64,000 bases of DNA, from positions 1-64,000 of the forward strand of contig JAUQPF010000009.1 in NCBI GenBank assembly GCA_030550535.1, given 5' to 3'. Positions within the stretch are counted from its first letter, which is position 1. Each line of letters opens with the position of its first letter. The notes beneath the pieces were generated by a model. That model was not told where the DNA came from and made no database searches. It saw only the letters and a program-made list of their open reading frames with translations. Both the position numbers and the translations under genes were made by a program. This document shows, one piece after another, positions 17,420 to 23,412 of the stretch. Origin of the DNA: Candidatus Bipolaricaulota bacterium. Lineage in GTDB: Bacteria; Bipolaricaulota; Bipolaricaulia; Bipolaricaulales; Bipolaricaulaceae.

Positions 17420-18109
17420 ATGCGCCGCACGATTTGGCAGGCAAGCGTTTTGTTCGTTCTGTTTGTGGTTGGTTTTGCCCAAGAGCCGCGGCTGCCCCTT
17501 GTGGTCGTCCAGGAGTTCGGGCAGGGGCGAGCCGGGAACGGGGAGTGGGTGGAGCTCCTCGTGGTGGGGACGGGTCCGGGGACGACGGTGGACCTCCGGG
17601 GCTGGGTCCTGCGGGACCTCCAGGGCCAAGGTCGCGGTGGGGTTTGGCTTAGGTTTACCGAGCACGAGCTTTGGCAAGCTATCCCTGCGGGCACCCTTAT
17701 CGTCATCTACAACGTTGAGGACCGCCCGAACCTTCCCGAGCATTTCCCCAAGGACGATTTTGATCCCTCGGACTTCCTGTTGGTGTTGCCCGCGCGAACC
17801 GGGGACTATTTCGTTCTCGCGCAGTGGGGCGGTTTGGGGAACACTGGGGATTGCATTCTTCTGGTTGACGCTCAGGGCAACGACGTCTTTGGGCTTTGCT
17901 ATGGGGAACGCAGCGGGCAACCCCTGCAGCTGGGCGCGGTGGATCGGGGGCGGGCCGCTTGGTATCTGGGAGCGGGGCTCGAGGGGATCTTCGATCCCAA
18001 GAACTGGCGCGTCGGTTTGGATGCTCCCGGGGGTTCCACTCCCGGCGCGCCCAACTCCGAAGAGAACGCGCGCTGGCTGGAGTTCCTGCGCACCCCTCCT
18101 TCCGCCTGA
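17420..18109 (+). CDS. Secreted lamin-tail-domain (LTD)-like protein
   Basis: 229 aa; signal peptide MRRTIWQASVLFVLFVVGFAQ; EFGQGRAGNGEWVELLVVGTGPGTTVDLRGWVLRD is LTD-like; similar to N-terminus of the next gene. Confidence 0.7.
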   Translation: MRRTIWQASVLFVLFVVGFAQEPRLPLVVVQEFGQGRAGNGEWVELLVVGTGPGTTVDLRGWVLRDLQGQGRGGVWLRFTEHELWQAIPAGTLIVIYNVEDRPNLPEHFPKDDFDPSDFLLVLPARTGDYFVLAQWGGLGNTGDCILLVDAQGNDVFGLCYGERSGQPLQLGAVDRGRAAWYLGAGLEGIFDPKNWRVGLDAPGGSTPGAPNSEENARWLEFLRTPPSA

Positions 18110-18232: not shown

Positions 18233-19699
18233 ATGGCCTTGAGGCGTTGGTTGTGGGGAATCGGCCTGCTCATCGCAAGCTTTTTTCTTGCCGAAAGCGA
18301 GACCCTTCGGGTGGTGATCAACGAGTTCGGCCAGGGCACCGCCGGAAGCGGGGAGTGGGTGGAGCTCCTCGTGGTGGGGACCGGTCCCTGCTCCACCGTG
18401 GACCTCCGGGGATATAAGCTCCTTGATCGGGAGGGCTACCTCAACCTGTCGGGGCCAACCCGAGTTGTGTTCCGGAACGTCCCGGCCTGGGCGGCGGTTC
18501 CGGCGGGGACCATTATTGTGATCTACAAGGGGGATGAACCAACTGGGAACTTCCCTCCGAACTTCCCCTTCAACGACCTCGACTTCTCCGACTATCGGGT
18601 CTCCATCCCCCACACGAACACGGACTTTTTTGAGGACGCGGCCTGGGGCGGACTGAGAAACGGTGGTGACTACGTGGTTCTTGTGGACGCTCAGGGGAAC
18701 TTAGTGGACGGGCTGAGCTACGGCGACCGCACCGGGGAGGCCACCTCCCCCGAGGTGAAGCTGGGGACGGTGGGCGCCAACACCGCGGCCTGGTTCACGG
18801 GCGGTTCCACGGCCCTCATCAACGACCCCGCCTACTGGCAGACGGGGAGCGAAAGCGGGGGGGCCTCGACCCCTGGCGCCCCCAACGGCGGGGCGAACAC
18901 GGCCTGGCGGAACGCCCTTCTCCCCCGGCCGACGATTTCGGTCACGCCCTCGGCCCACGAGTTCGGGGCCGTGCCCGTGGGCGGGGAAAGCCCTCCCCTC
19001 ACGGTGACGGTGGGGAACACCGGTTGCGCAAACCTCGCCGTGGGCACGCTGACCCTGACCGGGGCCGACCCGGGGGAGTTCGAGCTCCGAAACGACGAAA
19101 TCTCGGGGGCCACGGTCCCGCCGGGTGGCTCCCGCACGCTCCAGGTCCTGTTCAAGCCGACCGCGCCGGGGGCAAAGTCTGCTTTCCTTCAGATCCCTTC
19201 TAACGACCCCGGGAACCCCATGGTCAGCGTTACTCTGGCCGGCACGGGAGTTGCTCCCCTTTCGGTGAGCGCGGGCGGGCCCTACGTCGGGGTCGTGGGG
19301 GTTCCCCTGCCCCTCCAGGCCACGGCCGCCGGGGGCTTCCCGCCCTACGCCTTCGCCTGGGACCTCGATGGGGATGGTGCGTACGACGACGCAACTGGAG
19401 CACAGATTACGTGGACGTGGAACCTTCCAGGAATTTACACCGTGAGGGTGCGGGTGACTGACAGCACAGGCGCCCAGGCCACAGCCCAGGCCCCGGTCCA
19501 GATCGTCCCCGCCAAAGGGGATGTGAACGGCGATGGCCGGATCGACCTCGTGGACCTCCGGCTCGCTTACCAGGCAACCTTAGGGCTCCTCGTCCTCTCC
19601 CCCGAGGAGCGGGATCGCGCAGACTTGAACGGAGACGGCATCGTGGACATGGAGGATGTAGAGCTCCTCTGCCGACTGATCTTGGGAGGGTGCGGATGA
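18233..19699 (+). CDS. Secreted multidomain protein: LTD-like + HYDIN/choice-of-anchor-like + PKD + type I dockerin-like
   Basis: Signal MALRRWLWGIGLLIASFFLAES; INEFGQGTAGSGEWVELLV (LTD); PTAPGAKSAFLQIPSNDPGNPMVSVTLAGTG; PFAWDLDGDGAYDDA-type PKD; C-terminal DVNGDGRIDLVDLRLAYQATLG and DLNGDGIVDMEDVELLCRLILG duplicated Ca-binding loops. Confidence 0.85.
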   Translation: MALRRWLWGIGLLIASFFLAESETLRVVINEFGQGTAGSGEWVELLVVGTGPCSTVDLRGYKLLDREGYLNLSGPTRVVFRNVPAWAAVPAGTIIVIYKGDEPTGNFPPNFPFNDLDFSDYRVSIPHTNTDFFEDAAWGGLRNGGDYVVLVDAQGNLVDGLSYGDRTGEATSPEVKLGTVGANTAAWFTGGSTALINDPAYWQTGSESGGASTPGAPNGGANTAWRNALLPRPTISVTPSAHEFGAVPVGGESPPLTVTVGNTGCANLAVGTLTLTGADPGEFELRNDEISGATVPPGGSRTLQVLFKPTAPGAKSAFLQIPSNDPGNPMVSVTLAGTGVAPLSVSAGGPYVGVVGVPLPLQATAAGGFPPYAFAWDLDGDGAYDDATGAQITWTWNLPGIYTVRVRVTDSTGAQATAQAPVQIVPAKGDVNGDGRIDLVDLRLAYQATLGLLVLSPEERDRADLNGDGIVDMEDVELLCRLILGGCG

Positions 19700-20208
19700 G
19701 GTGGCCACGGCGGCTGGCGGCCCTTGGGCTTATGGCGGGGGTCTTCTTCCTTGTGGGAGGTTGCTTCTTCCTGCGTGCGCCCGTTCCGGAAAGCCCGGCG
19801 GTGGTGTTCGGCCCCGTGGTGGGGGGCGTGGGCCAAACCGTGGAGATCCCCGTGGAGATCCTGGGCTTTCCGGAGCCCGGAGTGGCCGGTTTGGCCGTGC
19901 TCGCGCTCCGTTACAATCCCGCGGTCCTGTGGATTACAGAAATTGAGGGTAAGAACGGTTTTGTCATCCTATGCTCGTGTGTGGACAACGTGAGCGGTCA
20001 GGTCAAGTTCGTCGCGATGAACCCTATTGCCGGTCTAAACACAGGCCAAGTAGCCACTTTGAGGGGTGCCCGTCTTGCAGGAGGCTCCCCTTGTTTATCC
20101 TTGGCTGAACAGGATGTCCAGTTGGTAAACCCGAAAAATCAAGCTCTACCCGGCTATGCTATTCGTCTAATAGGAGCCCCGTCTTACCTTACTCGAAGCG
20201 GCCGCTGA
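19696..20208 (+). CDS. Lipoprotein with cohesin-like domain
   Basis: Lipobox-like FFLVGGC; VVFGPVVGGVGQTVEIPVEILGFPEPGVAGLAVLALRYNPAVLWITEIEG resembles cohesin N-terminal strands; ATGA overlap with the dockerin gene. Confidence 0.65.
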   Translation: MRWPRRLAALGLMAGVFFLVGGCFFLRAPVPESPAVVFGPVVGGVGQTVEIPVEILGFPEPGVAGLAVLALRYNPAVLWITEIEGKNGFVILCSCVDNVSGQVKFVAMNPIAGLNTGQVATLRGARLAGGSPCLSLAEQDVQLVNPKNQALPGYAIRLIGAPSYLTRSGR

Positions 20209-20226: not shown

Positions 20227-23200
20227 TTATTCTTTCTTACCTGTGAGGAGAGCAGAAATCGCCTCGATTACTTCCATCCTGATTGTGTCGTTACCGGTTT
20301 GCAAGAGGGCAAGCAAGGCAGGCAGCGCATCCCTGGCCTCCAGTCCCATCCGTCTAAGCAATCTTACGATCATCAGCTGATGCGCGGGGTCCTCCAAAAA
20401 CTCAAGCAAATAGGGCACCGCCGCTTCCCCCGCAGCCAACGCTATATCGGCTATGAAGCGGTCTATGGGATACCTTGCGAGCTCTAGTTCAGCAAAGAGA
20501 AGGGGTATGGTTTCGGCTGCATATGGTCCTAGGGACCGAAACACCAGCAGGATAGGAAGACGACGTTCTGGGTCGGTTTTTTCCCAGAGCTCAAGAAGGA
20601 CGGGCCTCAGCATCGAGGCTTTTCGCTGGAGTAGAGGTTTCGGAATCCAAACTAAATGCAAGAGCATGTCGTCTCTAACAGTTTGGTCCATTTCATTTTG
20701 AAGGGCGCGGACAAGCGTTTCGATCACCTTGTCCGCGTAAGATTCCTCACGAATTGCTAACATTGCCAAGTTGCTTGAAGCCTCGCTGCGTACACGAGGA
20801 TCAGAATGATTTATCGCTTCAAGCAATATCTCGCAGGCCTTCTCCAACCCTTCCGGAGAAAGCTTGCCCCATGTTAGCATCATCTTTTGTATGCACATTG
20901 CGATTTTTCGAAGGCTTGGCGCGGAACTAGCAAGGAGCTCCTGTAGTAGAGGGAGGATGTCCTCTCCGTACCATGCCAGTGTGAAAGGGAACGACCAGTC
21001 CCATTCATTTTGCGCAGCCAGGTCGAGGATTCTGGGCAGAGCCTCCCAGGCCTTCACGTAAGCTAGGGCAGCGCTTGCAGCGTATTGCAGCTCGCGGTCG
21101 CCTGTCCCTAGCCACTGCAAAAGGTGAGGCACGACTTCCTCGCGGGCGTCTCCCAGCTCACTAAAGAACGCGAGAACAGCAGAGAGGCGCACGAGTCGCT
21201 CTTCGGCAACGAGGGCGCGAAGTAAGAGATCTTTCCTTTCGACCGGATCGCTCAAGAATTGAGAGGCAGCAAAGATGAGATAGCTTCGCACCGCAGGATG
21301 TTCGTCCCTCAATCCCACCTCTAGAAGCTCCCGCTCCAGCTGCTCATCTTCGCGCAGGAGGGCCATCCAAGCCCCGAGACGCACGGTCCACTCCTCGTCG
21401 TTTACGAGCGAGACAAGCGCTGGTCTGAGCCCATGAGGTTTAGGTTGACATCCGAGTACGATCAGCTCCCCCAAAAATCGTCCCAGAGGATGGGGATGGC
21501 CCAAGGCCTGCCGAATCCCAGCAGTGTCCAAACAGTATGCAGTGCGAAGTTCTGCGAAGTTAGCGTACGTTCTTAAGGCCTCAAAAATGACTCTGCCCGT
21601 AGGACTTATGGCTACTACTGTTTCGTATGTTGGTTGCATTCCTAAAGCCAGACGGACACTGGTGTAAACCTCAATGCTCGTGACATCTGTTAACAATTTA
21701 AGCAACCAAGCGCTTGGATCGACCAAGCTTTTTATGCGCTCAGATATCGTGGATTCCAGAGCCTTGGTGAGCACTTCTCCTATCCACTTAAGCAGTGGTT
21801 GGCGCTCCTCCGCGGGGATCAGTGTGATAATCGCATCCAACAAAGGCGTCAAACCAATTTTTCCCAGCGTTCCTGCAGCAGCTTTTTGTAGCTCTTTCCT
21901 CTGTTCCCAGCTGAGCTTCTTGTTTTCATGCACCAAACACTCAAGCAAATTAAACAACGCCGTTTCCGCCTCCGGCCCCATCTCTCCCAAGGCCTCGACC
22001 GCTGCCAAGCGCACTTCAAACACCTCGTCACCTAAAAGCCTGATCAACTCTTGGACAACTCGGGGAAAGCCTTGCCCCATGCGCCCCACGGCCAACGCCG
22101 CGGCTTTCCTCACCTTGGGAGCGGGATCGTGAAGGCGCTCAAGGAGCGGCAAGATGGCCTCTCGAGCAGCCGGCCCTAGCTCTCCAAGGGTTGAAGCCGC
22201 CACTTCGCGAACGAGATCGTTTGCATCTTTGAGGGCGGCAATTAAGTAGGGTACGGAGACCTCGGGCGGAGCGATAGCCCTTAAGGCACGAAGAGCTGAA
22301 GCTCTGACCGAGGGAATGGGGTAATGAACGCGAAGAAGCACGGTGTTCAAAGCCTCCGAAGCCACGGGGCCTAGGGCGACAAGGGCCTCTAAAGACACGC
22401 TGATTTCCTCAGGATCATACCTCCTTGCGATACGTTCAAGGGTTAAAACGGCGCTCAATTCCCCCCTGCCGATGGCTCCCAGCGTAGATATCGCTGCTTT
22501 CCGCAGCTCGGGAAGGTATTCTCCTCGGAGGAATTCGATGACCGCGGGCACAGCCTCCCGTGCCGCCTCCCCGAGGGCCCCAAGAAGCTCAAGTGCGACT
22601 TTGCGGCGGGCTTTATCCGGATGCCGAAGGGCCTCAACGAGAGCTGGGACCACGGGCTTGCCCAGGGAGGTTAGCCCGCCGCGAATAAGAGGGGTGACCC
22701 ATTGTCCTTGAGGCTTCGCAAGGATGTCCAATAGTTCAGGGACCAAAACCACCGCCTGCTCCCCCAGCTTGGGGAGGGCTTTGGCAGTTGGATACGCGAT
22801 CAAGGGGTCTTCGGATGTTAACCCCTTTTTGATCTCCAAAAGCGCTGCTTCCCGGCTTGGCGCAAGCTCCAGGAGACACAGAGTCGCAGCCAGGCGCTCC
22901 TCCCAAACGCCCTCACGAAGGGCGAGACTCAGCCTTGTTAAAAATTCGTCGGTCTGGAATTCTGTAGAAAGCCTGGCAAGAGCGTCGACAAAGAGGTTGG
23001 TTTCGTCGGCGTTTTCAAGCATGCGCAAAACGAAGTGAAAGTAGGCTGGATCCTTTACAGCGTCGTCCGACAAGAACGACTTGAAAGATGTGATTATGAG
23101 TTGGACGAGTTCCTCAAACGGGGATGGTTTTTCGAGGGCAAGATAGGCAGCTCTTTTCATTAGCTGTTGTGTCCATTGGTCTTCAAAAACAGGGATGCTT

Positions 23201-23412
23201 TGGAGAGTTTCCACGACCAATTTTGGATTGGCCAGGGTGAGCTCCCTAAGAGCGGAGCGAGCGGCTGCACGTATGCCTAGGTTCGGATAGTTTAGGAGCG
23301 CAACGAATTCTCGTATCGCTTGAGCTGCCAAGAAGTCCGGGGCGTCTGAGCCTAAGCTGACACCCCATAATCCCATCGCTATGAATAAGCTCAGGAGCAA
23401 TTTTTTTCTCAT
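20227..23412 (-). CDS. Exported HEAT-repeat protein
   Basis: 1061 aa; N-terminal signal MRKKLLLSLFIAMGLWGVSLGS; many HEAT-like repeats (e.g. VPYLIAALKDANDLVREVAASTLGELGPAAREAILPLLERLHDPAPKVRKAAALAVGRMG). Confidence 0.88.
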   Translation of the reverse strand: MRKKLLLSLFIAMGLWGVSLGSDAPDFLAAQAIREFVALLNYPNLGIRAAARSALRELTLANPKLVVETLQSIPVFEDQWTQQLMKRAAYLALEKPSPFEELVQLIITSFKSFLSDDAVKDPAYFHFVLRMLENADETNLFVDALARLSTEFQTDEFLTRLSLALREGVWEERLAATLCLLELAPSREAALLEIKKGLTSEDPLIAYPTAKALPKLGEQAVVLVPELLDILAKPQGQWVTPLIRGGLTSLGKPVVPALVEALRHPDKARRKVALELLGALGEAAREAVPAVIEFLRGEYLPELRKAAISTLGAIGRGELSAVLTLERIARRYDPEEISVSLEALVALGPVASEALNTVLLRVHYPIPSVRASALRALRAIAPPEVSVPYLIAALKDANDLVREVAASTLGELGPAAREAILPLLERLHDPAPKVRKAAALAVGRMGQGFPRVVQELIRLLGDEVFEVRLAAVEALGEMGPEAETALFNLLECLVHENKKLSWEQRKELQKAAAGTLGKIGLTPLLDAIITLIPAEERQPLLKWIGEVLTKALESTISERIKSLVDPSAWLLKLLTDVTSIEVYTSVRLALGMQPTYETVVAISPTGRVIFEALRTYANFAELRTAYCLDTAGIRQALGHPHPLGRFLGELIVLGCQPKPHGLRPALVSLVNDEEWTVRLGAWMALLREDEQLERELLEVGLRDEHPAVRSYLIFAASQFLSDPVERKDLLLRALVAEERLVRLSAVLAFFSELGDAREEVVPHLLQWLGTGDRELQYAASAALAYVKAWEALPRILDLAAQNEWDWSFPFTLAWYGEDILPLLQELLASSAPSLRKIAMCIQKMMLTWGKLSPEGLEKACEILLEAINHSDPRVRSEASSNLAMLAIREESYADKVIETLVRALQNEMDQTVRDDMLLHLVWIPKPLLQRKASMLRPVLLELWEKTDPERRLPILLVFRSLGPYAAETIPLLFAELELARYPIDRFIADIALAAGEAAVPYLLEFLEDPAHQLMIVRLLRRMGLEARDALPALLALLQTGNDTIRMEVIEAISALLTGKKE

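Follow-up and report, generated by a model that had tools for sequence, protein, structure and literature searches.

Reports of cohesins and dockerins that belong to no cellulosome go back years, and which of them binds which is little understood. The locus described here presents the simplest case: a lone cohesin whose gene comes right after that of its likely dockerin, in a phylum of which few members have been cultured. Do the products of these two genes form a docking pair, and could such a pair hold a protein at the cell surface? The genes occupy positions 18233-20208 of the window, the whole 64,000-nt stretch of contig JAUQPF010000009.1 from a Candidatus Bipolaricaulota bacterium (GCA_030550535.1) that was analysed, and the pair is compact and open to direct testing. 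Window features lie on the forward strand unless stated otherwise.

The upstream gene encodes a secreted protein with a type I dockerin

Gene 1 (18233-19699) encodes a secreted modular protein of 488 aa, in which a signal peptide is followed by a lamin tail domain (LTD), an ASH/HYDIN-like Ig domain, a PKD domain and a C-terminal dockerin. The LTD (residues 22-164; 18296-18724) matched Pfam PF00932 with 36.3 bits (cut-off 34.3). The Ig domain (residues 242-330; 18956-19222) matched PF15780 with 34.5 (cut-off 27) and the HYDIN/CFA65-like Ig family with 25.9 bits (cut-off 25.5), while the PKD domain (residues 343-420; 19259-19492) matched PF18911 and PF00801 above cut-off, PKD_4 scoring 34.7 bits against a cut-off of 27. 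A preliminary description of this DNA had named LTD, HYDIN-like and PKD modules, and each is borne out by a Pfam match above cut-off.

Type I dockerins are recognized by duplicated 12-residue calcium loops, with an acidic residue or Asn at positions 1, 3, 5, 9 and 12, together with three helices. The C-terminal domain of gene 1 (19514-19681) has all of these. It scored 41.1 bits against Dockerin_1 (PF00404), well above the gathering cut-off of 22.9, and 45.4 bits in the genome search. Both loops are complete (DVNGDGRIDLVD, residues 430-441, 19520-19555; DLNGDGIVDMED, residues 464-475, 19622-19657), and shuffling the protein 20,000 times never produced two such loops. AlphaFold2 placed helices at residues 439-449, 457-463 and 473-483, with block-mean pLDDT values of about 84-94. 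The model was good throughout the ASH-PKD-dockerin part; pLDDT was below 50 for residues 1-230, and the LTD model was unusable. These results confirm that two perfect calcium-binding dockerin repeats close the gene, as had been proposed from its sequence.

Directly upstream, a stand-alone LTD protein without a dockerin (17420-18109) shares 46% identity with the LTD part of gene 1 and, judged by sequence, is its tandem duplicate. On the other side of the pair and convergent to it, the reverse strand encodes a HEAT-repeat protein of 1061 aa (20227-23412) that probably carries a signal peptide; as a secreted protein it would be unusual. Scans for promoters and terminators in the neighbourhood of the pair gave nothing beyond chance.

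The downstream gene encodes a lipoprotein with a predicted cohesin fold

Gene 2 (19696-20208; 170 aa) is read in a different frame from gene 1, and its start overlaps the stop of gene 1 in an ATGA, the arrangement from which coupling of the two genes had been claimed. Its product is predicted to be a lipoprotein by its signal peptide and lipobox, which ends in Cys23 (19696-19764; MRWPRRLAALGLMAGVFFLVGGC). At least 90% of the 27 relatives in the family alignment have Cys at this position.

The preliminary description had also likened the mature part of gene 2 to a cohesin. The sequence case for this is weak. Gene 2 scored 20.4 bits against the Pfam cohesin family (PF00963), under the cut-off of 24.1, and 4 of the 27 family members matched PF00963 at E ≤ 0.01, the best at 3.5e-7. 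The best PDB sequence matches were Clostridium thermocellum CipA cohesins (phmmer, E 5e-5), in which about the first 50 domain residues alone were aligned; a profile alignment with the CipA cohesins likewise covered the first half only. The structural search gave a different picture from the Pfam search. An AlphaFold2 model built with 27 homologues had a mean pLDDT of 89.7 and nine strands, forming a jelly-roll domain at residues 35-158 (19798-20169). All of its top 50 PDB matches in Foldseek were cohesins, with probability 1.00 and TM-scores up to 0.74 on target length. They comprised type II surface anchors, which ranked first by E-value, as well as type I scaffoldin, Archaeoglobus and C. 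perfringens cohesins. In the model the cohesin fold is clear. The likeness to cohesins thus holds at the level of predicted structure, whereas the family profile by itself falls short of its threshold.

The genome holds one cohesin and two dockerins

We searched the genome of the window (1.41 Mb, 92% complete). It encodes a single cohesin-like protein with a single domain, and two dockerins. Since the modules are homologous to cellulosomal ones, the pair might be left over from a cellulosome-like scaffold for many enzymes, or serve such a scaffold as a distant anchor. We consider this hardly tenable: the one cohesin has one domain, Pfam recognized no enzyme domain on either dockerin protein, and no multi-cohesin scaffoldin was found in the 92% complete genome. 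A cellulosome as such was rejected on the same absence of a scaffoldin and of dockerin-bearing enzymes.

The second dockerin closes a NEW3-like secreted protein (G000:C43:27291-28313; L002:673-1698). Relatives of this protein occur in 81 of 100 genomes of the class, many of them lacking a cohesin match, so a dockerin by itself is no evidence of a cohesin. We also considered this dockerin as a further ligand of the gene 2 cohesin and judged this improbable, because the family is kept in genomes without a cohesin and its recognition positions are unlike those of the gene 1 dockerin.

An Omp85 protein is present in the genome, which suggests an outer membrane in this host. For a closed genome of the phylum, the choice between a monoderm and a diderm envelope was left undecided, and genes for flagella, pili and adhesins were reported absent (PMC6092417).

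The two genes are linked across the family and fused outside it

In the GTDB family of the window, 13 cohesin lipoproteins were interpretable, and each of them is immediately preceded by a dockerin frame in the same orientation (G000, G001, G004, G007, G009, G012, G014, G017, G020, G022, G025, G032 and G062). The dockerins of G014, G020 and G025 are under the Pfam threshold and were recognized by their loops. In G004 (L041:6840-7470) a TAG interrupts the dockerin frame and the cohesin carries a frameshift; either this pair is decaying or these are assembly errors.

We also scanned 100 genomes of the class. Cohesin profile matches were found in 41, dockerins in 57 and both in 35 (Fisher p 1.5e-6, uncorrected for kinship). 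A dockerin encoded on the same strand lay no more than 1.2 kb away from 56 of 131 cohesin-like matches; for none of the 131 was one on the opposite strand. Another 22 genomes had a dockerin and no detected cohesin; consequently, a dockerin alone does not prove that a cohesin partner exists.

In eight genomes from three other families, the dockerin and the cohesin share a single stop-free open frame (G046, G049, G052, G055, G063, G071, G072 and G073; loci L043, L045 and L082-L087). In these frames the dockerin leads into a hydrophobic stretch, followed by a basic stretch, then by another hydrophobic stretch that contains a lipobox Cys, and finally by the cohesin. Internal start codons are present in all eight, so that both one long product and the use of a second start are possible. 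If a long product is made, it may be a precursor that is cut by signal peptidase II. G012 has a separate kind of fusion, in which the lipoprotein signal is lost. Fusion of neighbouring genes in other lineages is a classical mark of partners.

The cargo modules that precede the dockerin differ between genomes: an LTD with one to three ASH domains, with or without PKD, an LTD-PKD arrangement, or a right-handed beta-helix. Among the orthologues of gene 1 the ASH domain is present in one to three copies and PKD is missing in some. The link between dockerin and cohesin is kept while the cargo modules change.

The folds could be correct without any partnership. The dockerin would then be a calcium-stabilized tail and the cohesin lipoprotein would bind a glycan, a peptide or an S-layer, the two genes having been inherited together in a surface-protein operon. 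This is compatible with the NEW3-like family, often found with a dockerin where there is no cohesin match, so that its dockerins must serve another purpose than docking to this cohesin, and with cohesin-like domains of other families that lie in PKD proteins without an adjoining dockerin. We nevertheless think it unlikely in view of the tight linkage in all 13 interpretable members of the family, the frame fusions in three further families, the exchange of cargo around a constant pair, and the Cys residues that occur at both putative interface sites within the same clade (see below). That the two genes form a real, conserved and minimal non-cellulosomal cohesin-dockerin module is well supported; that the partners bind each other is what we infer. 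The initial reading of the locus as a non-cellulosomal pair is therefore sustained by the verified folds, by linkage in every interpretable member of the family and by fusions elsewhere.

A putative docking face and its cysteines

The residues of each dockerin repeat that usually take part in recognition are those at positions 10, 11, 17, 18 and 22. In the two repeats of gene 1 these read LVYQG and MECRG. This asymmetry suggests a single binding mode, which has been reported for dockerins that attach single proteins straight to the cell surface (PMC5429695). Position 17 of the second repeat, in helix 3, is Cys480 (19670-19672), which aligns to a Ser in repeat 2 of 1ohz_B.

Known cohesins bind helices 1 and 3 of the dockerin on the sheet formed by strands 8-3-6-5 (PMC5429695). 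In the AlphaFold2 model of gene 2, strand 5 (residues 90-97; 19963-19986) carries Cys93 and Cys95. The strand, and with it the two Cys residues, is assigned to the putative docking sheet by strand order only, because the CipA profile alignment ends after the first half of the domain. A strand-5 Cys was found in 6 of 14 pairs; in all six, dockerin position 17 (and 24) is likewise Cys, as it is in none of the other eight (0/8). On the tree the Cys-bearing pairs form one clade (support 90/88), so the pattern represents one event and not repeated covariation. A search for VKOR alone found none and is hence neutral on a disulfide.

These observations allow a bolder reading, in which an intermolecular disulfide would join Cys480 and/or Cys487 to Cys93 (with Cys95) in the clade of the window, and the fused frames of the sister families would be precursors split by signal peptidase II at the internal lipobox, yielding a dockerin half and a cohesin lipoprotein half. 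We regard this as rather unlikely. If true, the disulfide and the split precursor would make a self-paired and in places covalent tether, unlike cellulosomal ones, and either feature could provide a useful new protein-coupling tag.

The pair as a possible envelope tether

We consider it likely that the locus encodes a genuine non-cellulosomal cohesin-dockerin pair that serves as a one-to-one tether at the envelope; we infer the binding, its calcium dependence, the place at a membrane and what the cargo does. After export and lipidation at Cys23, the lipoprotein would be held in a membrane by its anchor, its single cohesin domain acting as a socket. The co-translated product of gene 1 would be exported via its own signal peptide, its C-terminal dockerin folding with two calcium ions and plugging into the 8-3-6-5 face of the cohesin. 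Docking would display the LTD, ASH and PKD domains, and the pair may in this way tether its cargo to the cell surface. The cargo contains no recognisable catalytic part and presumably has a role in binding or adhesion.

The lipoprotein might instead belong to a larger envelope complex, sitting on an outer-membrane beta-barrel and aiding export or presentation of the dockerin protein beyond mere anchoring. In several genera, a beta-rich protein of ~390-440 aa with a signal peptide is encoded after the cohesin lipoprotein (G009, G014, G025, G032, G054, G058 and G038), and five such downstream proteins that were scanned had no Pfam family above cut-off. We find a complex of this type quite improbable here, as the window and G001 lack a beta-rich gene behind the pair, the next genes there being convergent, and the barrel identity is a reading of sequence. 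Beta-rich signal-peptide proteins after the cohesin lipoprotein are located at L040:7440-8618, L042:1837-3063, L051:5166-6413, L050:9106-10425 and L053:5600-6904; they are possible outer-membrane barrels.

Comparison with known cohesin-dockerin systems

Both archaea and bacteria are already known to carry cohesins and dockerins without a cellulosome (Peer et al. 2009, as cited in PMC9012536). The proteins of Archaeoglobus fulgidus, whose cohesin 2xdh was among the Foldseek matches of gene 2, and of ANME archaea resemble the present pair in that both modules occur outside cellulose degradation. In contrast to those sets, the Bipolaricaulota locus combines a one-domain cohesin lipoprotein one-to-one with an adjacent dockerin gene, recurs across the class, and in some genomes is naturally fused by way of a membrane segment and lipobox.

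The surface-anchoring cohesins of cellulosomes (type II cohesins such as SdbA, 2bm3; OlpC, 4dh2) share with the proposed tether an envelope-fixed cohesin that would catch a dockerin protein. They are attached through SLH-type or other anchors of the Gram-positive wall and serve cellulosomes, whereas the Bipolaricaulota pair has a predicted lipid anchor, no enzymes and no scaffoldin. Candidatus Stygibacter (Cloacimonadota) provides another cohesin/dockerin system in an uncultured phylum outside Firmicutes. Its scaffoldin, of 3,755 aa, contains multiple cohesins, and dockerins occur on hydrolases and peptidases (PMC8542988), while the pair described here has one cohesin and structural cargo. What appears to be new is the recurrent module of one cargo and one lipoprotein, its fusion into a single precursor, and the Cys residues that co-occur at position 17 in dockerin helix 3 and in cohesin strand 5, a combination confined to one clade. 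The novelty is in layout and fusions, not in kind.

Many large surface proteins in other Bipolaricaulota families (L046, L048, L050, L052 and L053) end in a FlgD/T9SS-like domain (NGVYLY...KLVIxR), and some of these have N-terminal cohesin-like domains and PKD repeats.
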